Shown here piece after piece: positions 41,201-62,200 of a stretch of 64,000 bases of DNA. The position numbers and the translations under genes were made by a program. Each line of letters opens with the position of its first letter. Position 1 is the stretch's first letter. Source of the stretch: Salvelinus alpinus (lineage: Eukaryota; Chordata; Actinopteri; Salmoniformes; Salmonidae); assembly GCF_045679555.1 (NCBI RefSeq), contig NC_092115.1, forward strand, positions 39,011,228 to 39,075,227, read 5' to 3'. The notes under the pieces are model-generated. The model was not told the DNA's origin, ran no database searches, and saw only the letters and a program-made list of their open reading frames with translations.

Positions 41201-44200
41201 TGCCGGCGGTACTTGGTTTAATAAGAAGAGAGAAGGAGAAGAGGTTGTCAACAGAATTACCAGGGGAATAGCAACCCGTCATTGTGATTGGTTGTAGCCT
41301 ATCGAGGGAAAAGCTTATGCTTAAATGGTTTTGTGTAGAATTCCATTTTGCTCATGTGGTGTTAACACTAGCAGATGACCGTGACAAAGATAAAACATAT
41401 TGTAGCCCAATGCACTAATTAACGTGAAAAACATGACATGCAATATGTTCAATAAAACAGTGCATTAAACACTTCCAGATAGCCTATACAATATAAAAAT
41501 ATTATAGGCTATAGTCCTACTATATAGGTTGGTTTAGTTTCATATAACCTAACCATTTAAGCGTACAGCAATCTTGTTTGTTTTGGATTGGAAAGTAGCT
41601 TTAAAGAGCAGAATTTACTGTCTTTATTTCTAATCTAATTTCCAATTAACGAAGGAGAGAAATAACAGCCTATCTTAATTAGCTTTATAAGTTAAGGCTT
41701 TTTCCAATGAAAAGCTTTTAGTCTGCCTGGCTTGGTGAGAGAACTGATTTTATAAGAAATACAAAGAATAGAAAAGTTATACACACAAAAACTGTCCTAA
41801 AAGCATGAAAAGCAAACATCTGGTCTAAAACTTGTAACATATTTCACGGGATTATGTTGTGGCCAGTTTAGTGGTCTATGGTGTACAGTACGTACCTGTT
41901 CGCACGCCGTACTTGAGCGTGTCCCTGCAGTCCACAAGGATCTGCTCAAGGGACTCTGGCTGGTCAGAGAGCTCGAGGTTGAATCCCTCCATGCCCTCGA
42001 GCAGCTGATGCGGATGGTGGAAGTCCAGAACCTTGGTGGAACGGTCGAACGTCTTCCTGACGTAGTTGGTGAGGATGTCCACAAGTTCCAATAAGAACTG
42101 CATAGTCGCCTCTTCTCCATTTTTGGCGGGAAGTAAATCTAGAAGAATTAGGGGAAAAGCATTTACAAAACAAAAACAAATGTATGTAGAGGCTGGATTC
42201 CCTCATAGATAAGGGGGCCTGTAACGGCTATAACAAACAAACAACATTGTAGGTCTAGACCAGCGTTCACTATGTCTAGAAAATGAAAGATAAAAAAGAG
42301 TAGGCCTATATTGAAAGTCTGGCAAGAATAAACTTCTCTTACCTCTCGCAAACATGTTGGAGAAATCGGTCTCAGTGCGGCGGAAGCGCGTATCCCGGTC
42401 GCTGTTGACACAGGAGAACAGGTTCTTCTGGCGTTCTGAGAGCGAGCCTGCGAGCCGGCCTTCCTCCCCTAGACTGTTATTCTTCTGCAGGAACCCTAGG
42501 GTGTTGCACGGAGGGGCAAGAGTGGGGGAACACGCTTGGTTACCACTGCCCAACATCACTAGATAAATAACTTGATAATAACTTTTATTCAAAGACCTGA
42601 GTTTTATCTATCCTTGTTATCAGTTACAAATGCAACACAGGTCTTGTGGTGTCCTCTCTCAGACAGCGCTTATATACCCGGGTGGTAATCCCCATATAGC
42701 AGGAGGGTTATGGATCAATGTATGGATGAGGGTTGCCTGTGTATTTCTGTGTGTCTGTGTATGTGAGTGTGTGTGTGTGCTTGCATGGGTGCCCTGCCCA
42801 ACTCTGCACAGTGACATCAACCCATAACCCAGCCATGCTGGAAATAGTTTTTTTTGGACAGTAGTTACACCTAACAGAAACAGGTCGTTTTGGATAGTCG
42901 GTACACCTAATGGAAACAGATTCTTATGGACAGTATTTACACCTAATAGAAACAGGTTATTTTTGACAATTGTCAAACCCAATGGAAACAAGGTATTTTG
43001 GACAGTAGCAATACCTAATGGAAGCAGGTTGTTTTGGACAGTAGTTACACCTAATGGAAGCAGGCAATTTTGGACAATAGGTACACATAATGGAAACAGG
43101 TTCATATGGACAGTATTTACACCTAATGGAAACAGGTTATTTTGGAAAGTATTTACAACTAACAGAAACAGGTTATTTTGAACAATTGTCAAACCTAATT
43201 GAAGCAGGTTATTTTGGACAGTAGTCACACCTAATGGAAGCAAGTTGTTTTGGACGGTAGTTACACCTAATGGAAACAGGTTCTTTTGAACAGTAGATAC
43301 ACGTTATTTTGGCTAGAAGTTACACCTAATGGAAACAGGTTTTTCGGACAATTGTTACACCTAATGGAAGCTGGTTATTTTGAACAATTGTTACACCTAA
43401 AGGAAGCAGGTTGTTTTGGACAGTAGTTACACCTAATGGAAGCAGGCTATTTTGAACAGTAGGTACACCTAATGGAAGCTGGTCATTTTGGCCAGGAGTC
43501 ACACCTAATGGGAGCAGGTTGTTTTGGACAATTGTTACACCTAATGGAAGCAGGCTATTTTGGACAGTAGTTGCACCTAATGGAAACAGGTTATTTTGGA
43601 CAGTATTTACAACTAACGGAAACATGTTATTTTGGACAGTAGTTACACCTAATGGAAGCAGGTTTTTTAGGACAGTAGTTACACCTAATGGAAACATGTT
43701 CTTATGGACAGTATTTACACCTAATGAAAACAGGTTATTTAGGACTATTGTCAAACCTAATGGAAACAGGATATTTTTGACAGTAGTCACACCGAATGGA
43801 AACATGTTATTTTGGACAGTAGGTACACCTAATGGAAACAGGTTATTTTGGACAGTATTTACAAATAATGGAAACGGGTTATTTTGGGCAGTAAGTACAC
43901 CTAATGGAAACAGGTTATTTTGGACAGTATTTACACCAAATAGAAACAGTTTATTTTGGACAGTATTTACACCTAATGGAAACAGATTATTTTGGACAGT
44001 ATTTAAAACTAACGGAAACAGGTTATTTTGGACAATTGTCAAATCTAATTGAAGCAGGTTATTTTGGACAGTAGTCACACCTAATGGAAGCAAGTTGTTT
44101 TGGACGGTGGTTACACCTAATGGAAACAGGTGATTTTGAACAGTAGATACACTTAATGGAAACATGTTATTTTGGCTAGCAGTTACACCTAATGGAAACA

Positions 44201-59200: not shown

Positions 59201-62200
59201 TATGGACAGTATTTACACCTAATGGAAACAGGTCATTTTGGACAATTGTCAAACCTAATGGAAACATTGTTATTTTGGACAATAGTCACACCTAATGGAA
59301 GCAGGTTGTTTTGGACAGCAGTTACACCTAATGGAAGCAGGCTATTTTGGACAGTAGTTACACCTAATGGAAACACATTCTTTTGGACAGTAGTTACACC
59401 TAATGGAAACACATTATTTTGGACAGTAGTTACACCTAATGGAAACACGTTATTTTGGACAGTAGTTACACCTAATGGAAACACATTCTTTTGGACAATA
59501 GTTACACCTAATGGAAACACGTTATTTTGGACAGTAGTCACACCTATTGGAAATCTGTCATTTCGGACAGTAGTTACACCTAATGGAAACACGTTCTTTT
59601 TGGACGGGAGTTACACCTATTGGAAATCTGTCATTTCGGACAGTAGTTACACCTAATGGAAACACGTTATTTTGTATGGTAGTTACACCTATTGGAAACA
59701 TGGTATTTGTATATGAAATTATTAATACATATCTACTTAATTTAATTGTTCTATTGAAACACTATTGAGAAAAAAGTATTAGAAAGTATTATGTCAGATT
59801 GACAAAATGTATTCAGGTAATCACGTTTCAGTTGAATTTGAACAAGTACCTCTCAAATGAATCAATTGTGTCAGCTCTAGCTCTTTTTCAGTTGCATTTG
59901 TCATAACTACTAAATGAAATAAAAAACACCAATACATTACAAAGTTTAATTTCCAATTAACAATGGTACAGTAAAGAGGTCAGTAGGGAGCTTTGTGCTC
60001 CCATCTACTTCTTACTCAACCATGAAGTGCATTGCCAGTTCCTGAACCTGCAGTCTATCAATTGAACTAACCTACAGACCAGTTTAACTACACTGACATA
60101 ATCAGTTACGGTTACATAAACTTTTAACATGTGGTTGTTAATCTACCTTAGTTGAACGCACTGACTGAAGTCGCTCTCGATAAAAGTGTCTGCCAAATTT
60201 CCAAAATGTAAATGTACAAATGTACAGCATGCTGACGATTAATCTAATGAGCTCTGCCCCCTAAAAAGACAAACTCTTTGACCAAACAAAATTTGCTCAG
60301 TTAATTTCTACGTGAATGAATCTGGTGCACATCAAATTCCACCGAGTTAAATCAGTAAATTCTACAAGAAACAATTACATTCCGCAATAAAACATGAATT
60401 GTTCGTGTAATGTTAACAAAATATGATAGAGCAATCCTAAAGGCAGCCACAAATGTTTGTGTAGAGGAGACATTTTGGAAGGGAAAGGGGATAACTAGTT
60501 ATCTGAACAACTGAATTGATTCTACCAAAATGTGTCTCCGCATTTAGGCCAACTCATTCGAATCAGACTGGGGTTAATGATGGATGAGAGACATTTAACG
60601 GGCTTTGGATAGGCTAGTCTATTTTTTACTAAAGTCCGTGTGTATTAATAGCCCATTGATTTTAGAGAAAAAACTATAGCAGACTACCACAAGAAAAGGT
60701 CGTTATGGAAGGATTTAAACATATATTTTCACGTCATACAGTTTTAAGTAAATTATTCTATCAAAATCGGATGTTAAAATGTTTTGCAATATCGAACAGA
60801 CGAGACCCTCAATATCGAACAGACAAGGCTCTCTCAAACAGAACCCCTTTTCTGTTTCAGAGCTTCAGAGATCCTTTCATTTAAACGTACTCCCCTAATC
60901 TTGGATGGCAGATTGGCACTGATTATTTGACAAGATCAGCAGCCTCGACAACTGCTGGTTGGTTCTCGTTAATCTTCCCTCTCATCCACAGGACGCGTCT
61001 CTTTACTGAAAGGAGCTGACGACTGTAACGGCCTGTAAATCCAACACTGACATAGGCCAACATCTAACAACTCAGCACAATTTTCTGAAGACTGTTTGTG
61101 ACAACAGAGGGATTTTTCCGTTTTCTCCTCCACACAATTTTTTTTATTTCAACCCCGAGCACAAAGCGATTCCTTATCAGCCCAAAGGGGATATTATAGA
61201 AACGAGGGTAAATTATTGGGCCTGGTGCATAATGAACAGAAATTTGAAAATTACTCATAAGGCCAAAGCAATGTCCTCTATAAAATGAATCAGTCAGTTT
61301 ATTGAATAAACATGTTTCCTCGTACATTGCGGTAAATTATTTCGTTATTAAGGTTATTTGCAGGGTTGTAAGGGAGGTTAAATTGTGTTAATTTTATCCG
61401 GCAGGGGGCGTCCTCATTACGGGGCAGGTTACCTAATTATGTGGGCCCTCGGTACGAATTATAGTTCTGCATCGTAACTCTCGAGCTAAAACCAATTTAT
61501 TCTTAGGCTAATGACATCCTCTTCTTTGTTTTTGGATTGAACCAATGGTAGGACAATGCATACTTTTGCAATTAAATGTTAACTTGACATTATCAAAACC
61601 CTGCCACCAAAACATGTTGGACTGAAATCAATGAAAGTAGGAAGGATTTCTTAAAGCAAATATATTTTTCTCAATGTGTGATGACGTCAAACCAATCCTA
61701 GATGTAATCGAAAAACGATTAAATATACAGTGTCCAGGGAAAAAAGGTCCTCTAAGATTCCTGTTGGAAAAATACTGGATTCAATCGTTTCACCTTGTTT
61801 TAGCTGGATTGGCTAACGTAACAGAGGCTTTATGGAACCTCCCAGATTTACCAAACCCACGCTCTCCCACGTCATCTCATCGACGTCATCACATCTCATT
61901 TTATAAGGTATATAAAAAAATACGTTTTGCATAAAGGGACCCAAATCCATACCACCTCCAAACGGAAAGGCTAGGAAATTAATGTTTAAAAAAATAATAA
62001 GTCGTTGATAAAATAAAATACAAAACTGGAATTAGAACATTTATTATTTAGTCTATAGCCCTAGTTTATGCACACACCATGTTGGCAGCTAATTCTGCAT
62101 TAAAAACCTATTGGACAGCTCTATCTCGACAAATATTCAATGTTTAGGCATTTTCTACATTTCTGAGGCGAATTGTTACTTGCTGTAGTGTAGGCCTGTA

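Follow-up and report, generated by a model that had tools for sequence, protein, structure and literature searches.

A 64,000-bp stretch of the Salvelinus alpinus genome, hereafter called the window (contig NC_092115.1, C30:39011228-39075227 of the genome searched, where C numbers denote contigs and L numbers fetched stretches), contains a gad1 gene with a giant 36-bp tandem repeat in one of its introns. The array is very probably a neutral minisatellite that was born inside a copy of a dispersed element in the gad1 intron and grew in place, later by blocks. We infer the following order of events. A copy of the old element would have landed in the gad1 intron, where slippage or unequal exchange between two ATTTT words of the element, 36 bp apart, would have duplicated the 36-bp segment ATTTTGGACAGTAGTTACACCTAATGGAAACAGGTT; tandem copies of this segment would then have multiplied in place, and the array, once large, would have grown mainly by in-register copying of whole blocks through unequal crossing-over, gene conversion, or break-induced replication. 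Every step follows a described mechanism, and what is distinctive is the size of the array, its visible seed, and the presence of three arrays of one segment. A single genome holds unamplified copies of the element, two small arrays, the giant array, and an array-free paralogue, which makes this a minisatellite whose seed can still be seen.

The array and its host gene

A search of the window with the human GAD67 protein sequence as probe located gad1-like coding exons on the minus strand that match GAD67 from residue 29 to the last residue; residues 1 to 28 of the same probe found no match within the window. The exons flanking the array match residues 29-49 and 49-101 on the minus strand, and we take them to be exons 2 and 3 under human numbering (Table 1). 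The intron between them is 20,023 bp long and retains its GT and AG splice ends, the array occupies 84% of it, and stops in the exon alignments are confined to places where the alignment extends into intron sequence. An earlier note on this DNA, made by reading the letters, had named the gene as gad1 and placed the array in an intron of about 20 kb, and the GAD67 matches and the intron length bear this out. Other gad1 introns, at 30066-38680, contain numerous long CA/GT runs of up to 193 bp, one of which adjoins an exon at 30510-30545.

Tandem Repeats Finder reports three 36-bp arrays (42839-43302, 43299-56936, and 56949-59708), which a wrap-around alignment joins into a single array of 16,870 bp. 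With 468 head-to-tail units of 36 bp, this is a minisatellite in the usual sense of tandem units of 10-100 bp. In the wrap-around alignment 414 of the 468 units are exactly 36 bp long and 54 differ (19-51 bp); the units have a mean identity of 89% to the consensus and form 169 distinct unit strings. The CpG observed/expected ratio is depleted in the array (0.19 vs 0.42 in the rest of the window). The extent given in the earlier note (42847-59710, about 470 copies) was accurate to within a few bases and units, and the description of the array as uninterrupted stands, as the alignment passes along its whole length without foreign insertion; the window is free of Ns. The note did not mention the blocks inside the array, the element to its right, or further copies elsewhere in the genome.

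The unit as a segment of a dispersed element

A genome search with pieces of the array returned arrays on C11 and C5, 12 single-match places of 39-49 bases each, and, again on C5, a weak match 235 bases long. Ten of the 12 single-match places were read (L006, L007, L008, L025-L028, L039, L044, and L045; the places on C3 and C1 were left out). L006, L007, L008, and L025-L028 have sequence in common beyond the unit, and this sequence continues in the window as the right flank of the array, from 59709 to approximately 60434. The flanks common to the single-unit places match the right flank of the array, which identifies the unit as a piece of an old dispersed element. Searching the genome with the right flank itself gave 547 first-look candidates, 40 of which were scored, yielding 44 matches including the window; the 43 matches outside the window, from these 40 scored candidates, are 69-86% identical to the window flank.

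Fifteen copies of the element were read. Thirteen of them hold the unit region, with one unit each, and two do not. ATTTT words stand on both sides of the unit, exactly 36 bp apart, in 9 of the 13 unit-holding copies (6/7 among copies found via the unit and 3/6 among those found via the element body), so that 5-bp direct repeats are spaced by one unit length. The majority sequence of the 13 single copies reads TTCA-ATTTTGGACAGTAGTTACACCTAATGGAAACAGGTT-ATTTTTACA, and its middle 36 bases equal the array consensus letter for letter. Element sequence is present on the right of the gad1 array, with the left end missing or too diverged, and on both sides of the C5 array. Neither terminal inverted repeats nor a clear target-site duplication was seen by eye in the element, whose right end differs between copies.

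These observations bear on the tie between the unit and gad1 that the earlier note had implied. No such tie holds: the unit belongs to a dispersed element (40 of 547 first-look candidates scored) and makes up two other arrays elsewhere. The converse possibility, that the unit is common and dispersed and bears no particular relation to gad1, is half right: the unit is dispersed, but arrays of it are rare. Counting units with at most three mismatches from the junction form of the consensus, we found 260 occurrences in the genome (247 forward and 13 reverse) and 0 with a reversed-pattern control. Three arrays account for 259 of the 260: the window contributes 211, the C11 stretch 35, and the C5 stretch 13. 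The C11 array comprises at least 36 units, ends at a run of at least 4,024 Ns that may be an assembly gap, and may be larger; the C5 array comprises 24 units. Classical satellite DNA, which would appear as many large, typically heterochromatic arrays, was considered and rejected, since all but one of the 260 near-consensus units are confined to three arrays, of which one is intronic. A 31-base word of the unit, searched for exactly, was absent from the viral and prokaryote contigs, where a fish repeat would not be expected.

The weak C5 match (C5:9668235-9668469; L038:4180-4459), which is 70% identical to the array piece, proved to be a 35-bp array of about 8 units. We rejected it as an instance of the 36-bp repeat, as it has about 12 letters (GGTTATTTTGGA) in common, offers no place with 21 of the 31 core letters, and lacks an element flank; the shared GGTTATTTTGGA may reflect chance or a distant tie. 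The C5 stretches L030 and L038 contain many other minisatellites, with periods of 28-66 bp and more, and such arrays are therefore dense in parts of the genome.

An origin of this kind has been described. In the Haber and Louis model of minisatellite birth between short direct repeats, as presented in PMC3389668 and PMC6947457, a minisatellite begins with slippage or unequal exchange between direct repeats of 5-10 bp, which dispersed elements can supply. The gad1 array shares with minisatellites of this type a unit cut from an element, a 5-bp direct repeat that bounds the single-copy form, and a presumed amplification in place. It differs from them in being very long, 468 units where PMC6947457 gives up to 100 for minisatellites, and in that one element segment occurs as three arrays in one genome. 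According to PMC3389668, the two established routes explain only 6% of human element-derived tandem repeats; the short-direct-repeat route is thus a known one, though not the most frequent there. Six words of 15 to 17 letters from the unit or its complement gave no paper in a full-text search.

The three arrays could also share a single birth, the array having reached the gad1 intron (or C5, or C11) ready-made, through transposition of an already expanded element or ectopic exchange. We consider this unlikely, with a small but real chance of being correct. It would account for the unit variant TTATTATGG, which the C11 and C5 arrays have in common although their host copies do not group, and the starred branches of a tree built from the sequence after the array (16 rows of 135 bases each) require no more than one origin. 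In the same tree, however, the host copy of the C11 array joins L026 and L028, which are single-unit copies (88/99), rather than the host copies on C30 or C5, which are unplaced; the array label requires three changes, and 0 of 200 bootstrap trees give one. The 36-bp seed is, moreover, already present in single-unit copies, and a second tandem unit occurs in 0 of 13. Separate births of the three arrays are the reading that we favor.

Two further points concern the arrays. The variant TTATTATGG in the C11 (L029) and C5 (L030) arrays may be due to convergence or to inter-locus exchange. All three arrays also lie toward a contig end, at a distance from it of 8.3 Mb on C30 (47.4 Mb long), 5.0 Mb on C11 (75.6 Mb), and 4.9 Mb on C5 (103.5 Mb); post hoc, this fits growth by recombination, if recombination is concentrated near chromosome ends.

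Block structure and growth of the array

Near-identical repeated blocks (search thresholds: lags of at least 40 bp and scores of at least 150, which miss short copies) cover 89% of the array. The first 366 bp (42839-43204) and the last 859 bp lie outside any block, as unequal exchange predicts for array ends. Three block copies adjoin their source, at lags of 520, 1,095, and 2,879-2,951 bp (about 14, 30, and 80 units), and other block pairs are separated by up to 14,439 bp (401 units). The longest ungapped pair spans 1,882 bp with 4 mismatches, exact repeats within the array reach 1,259 bp, and the ten longest pairs, which partly overlap, differ in sum at 44 of 10,995 positions (0.4%). Such low divergence suggests recent change. 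Because alleles differ to about the extent of this 0.4%, length polymorphism is predicted, and from its sequence the array is probably variable in length between fish; the same figure is also a caution, since alleles may have been set in tandem by the assembly.

The order of the unit variants differs between the large array and the small ones. None of the 467 pairs of neighboring units in the gad1 array are identical, where permuted orders have 3.3 such pairs on average and lack them altogether in a share of 0.04; in the C11 array 8 of 35 pairs are identical, and in the C5 array 3 of 23. Identical units recur instead at long distances, in 16% of pairs at a lag of 157 units and in 12% at a lag of 239. 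At lags of 1-13 units, 17 identical pairs were counted vs a permutation mean of 42, a depletion that cannot serve as a test alone because block duplication raises the counts of shared types and is part of the cause. Most simply, small arrays would expand a single unit or a few units at a time, and the large array through in-register exchange of long blocks. The shift from small arrays with identical neighbors to block-wise growth is open to direct study in this genome.

There is little chance that the array owes its length to an assembly error, by which two haplotypes or misplaced read overlaps would have been placed in tandem. The block duplicates are about 0.4% apart, as alleles may be, exact repeats extend to 1,259 bp, and the C11 array does end at a run of at least 4,024 Ns. 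A single haplotype join would not, however, yield nested block pairs at many lags (520-14,439 bp) that shift by indels. The array ends are unique, and an array of about 11 kb would be left without the two largest duplicate blocks, each of about 2.9 kb. The case is also a warning that assemblies may give introns of this kind a wrong length.

The earlier note had called minisatellites of this length rare in introns of conserved neuronal genes. This needs qualification, as long intronic arrays in neuronal genes are not unprecedented: a 30-bp variable number tandem repeat (VNTR) in an intron of CACNA1C, named TRACT, spans 3-30+ kb, according to PMC13131567. Both are very long intronic minisatellites in conserved neuronal genes, 17 kb here, with many unit variants. 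TRACT is thought to have grown via perfect tracts of identical neighbors, whereas the gad1 array has 0 identical neighbors and repeats long blocks. PMC13131567 reports that TRACT shows no overt instability at present, so great length does not have to entail instability.

The gad1 paralogues, tests of function, and other features of the window

Gad1-like exons besides those on C30 are present on C23, C14, and C20, and C23 and C10 carry others that are more distant. The closest paralogue overall is the C23 copy (91% in both exons searched), whose intron of 2,502 bp compares with about 2.4 kb for the 20,023-bp window intron after subtraction of array and element. The C23 and window introns align on either side of a part that measures 141 bp in C23 and 17,727 bp in the window (42839-60565); these 141 bp match neither element nor array. 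Either, then, the element and the array came in after the C30 and C23 copies had separated, or C23 has lost them. No match to the array turned up in the stretches fetched next to the C14 and C20 exons. The suggestion that the array might differ between salmonid gad1 duplicates thus holds in one respect, the closest paralogue being without it. Directly right of the element, at 60466-60539, there is an inverted pair, GGAGACATTTTGG / CCAAAATGTGTCTCC, read by eye; the C23 paralogue shows a weak 16/18 match to its left arm and no firm match before 60566.

Two possible products of the array were examined and rejected. As a coding repeat, the array shows no clear deficit of amino-acid changes in any of the six frames under a uniform model. 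Its longest open run, 603 codons, is matched by 56 of 200 shuffles of unit order. The synonymous share of amino-acid-coding changes, observed vs uniform expectation, is 0.26 vs 0.27 in the minus open frame and 0.29 vs 0.24 in the plus open frame, and stop-creating changes in the plus frame number 26 of 543, vs about 25 expected. As a structured RNA, the array is ordinary: none of five stretches folded was unusual (z 0.24 to 1.70), and at the gathering score Rfam had no match inside the array and one in the whole window, outside the array.

A function of the array within gad1, as an enhancer array, a brake on splicing or transcription, or a source of a 12-residue repeat peptide, is highly improbable. 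It would gain interest from the fact that the array forms 84% of the intron in the C30 gad1 copy and is missing from the C23 copy, from the open runs of up to 603 codons and the open frame with few stop-creating changes, and from reports that expression is lower with longer alleles of the intronic VNTRs in CACNA1C (fibroblasts and testis; PMC13131567) and ABCA7 (PMC5954066). Against it stand the lack of a clear amino-acid-change deficit in any frame, open runs that unit-order shuffles match, ordinary RNA folding in 5/5 stretches, intact splice ends, and the amplification of the same unit at two other places. Like the gad1 array, the ABCA7 repeat is a tandem repeat within an intron, in a gene that is transcribed in brain; the length of the ABCA7 repeat is tied to expression and exon skipping (PMC5954066). 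The gad1 array itself was read in one assembly. Among the matches listed for salmonid or trout minisatellites and for a GAD1 VNTR, judged by title and start of abstract, none tied such an array to gad1, which is no proof of absence.

No strong argument for a function of the array emerged, and an effect on transcription may exist. The array is most likely selectively neutral ballast that is removed by splicing. It would be a long shot to suppose that the element family is a recurrent minisatellite factory, whose ATTTT pair gives rise to one and the same 36-bp minisatellite independently at several sites, and that the giant array also makes one gad1 copy length-polymorphic and differently expressed relative to its paralogue. 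One copy of a duplicated gad1 is a candidate for length-dependent expression differences, a testable idea that is so far unsupported.

Several points weigh against a neutral array born in place inside the element. Seven of the 13 single copies were chosen through a match to the unit, and the copies found through the element body keep the exact spacing in 3 of 6. The gad1 array lacks the left end of the element, so the seed boundary is visible on the right only, and there it has diverged (GTATTTGTATATGAAA vs ATTTTTACATTAAA in other copies). Insertion on C30 and loss from C23 are not polarized by an outgroup, and the 141 bp of C23 are not firmly matched in the window. The flank tree has no strongly supported branch, so a single birth followed by spread may yet be the case, and the label test is without power at three labeled rows, since 500 of 500 shuffles score as low (mean 2.8 changes). 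As to neutrality, the minus open frame has 3 stop-creating changes out of 543, vs about 15 expected, with only three possible changes that make a stop.

Table 1. Coordinates of the array, its blocks, the host intron with its exons, and the element (positions of the window)
Feature	Position	Strand	Basis
36-bp minisatellite array, 468 units, 16,870 bp	42839..59708		Tandem Repeats Finder and wrap-around alignment
Largest duplication of adjoining blocks, 80-82 units or about 2.9 kb: 44183-47116 and 47098-50067	44183..50067		Lags 2879, 2915, and 2951; pieces of 498-1,374 bp with 2-6 mismatches
Block 48163-51001, again at 53827-56737 (157-159 units)	48163..56737		Lags 5664 and 5736; 4 mismatches in 1,882 bp, 1 in 956 bp
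Right end of array, outside all near-identical blocks found	58850..59708		Block search; the left end (42839-43204) and three shorter stretches inside the array also lie outside
gad1 coding exon 2 (human numbering; part matching GAD67 residues 29-49), donor GTAAGT adjoining	62519..62570	-	GAD67 match and splice end
gad1 coding exon 3 (human numbering), acceptor CCCTAG before, donor GTAAG after	42343..42495	-	GAD67 match and splice ends
Host intron, 20,023 bp (C23 paralogue: 2,502 bp)	42496..62518	-	Splice ends
Remaining body of the dispersed element hosting the array; right end approximate; strand is that reading the unit as GGACAGTAGTTACACC	59709..60434	+	Matches of about 68-86% to element copies elsewhere; none in the C23 paralogue stretch L031

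Two further repeats lie elsewhere in the window. At 17529-18147, part of a transposase reading frame, PPYSPDMSPIEHVWDVLDRH, presumably that of a Tc1-like transposase, is multiplied in frame as a 90-bp tandem repeat (6.8 copies, 94% matches). Minus-strand open frames at 19116-21579 resemble, as we take them, a LINE reverse transcriptase and endonuclease, and an Rfam UnaL2 LINE 3' element is located nearby on the plus strand, at 20994-21047.

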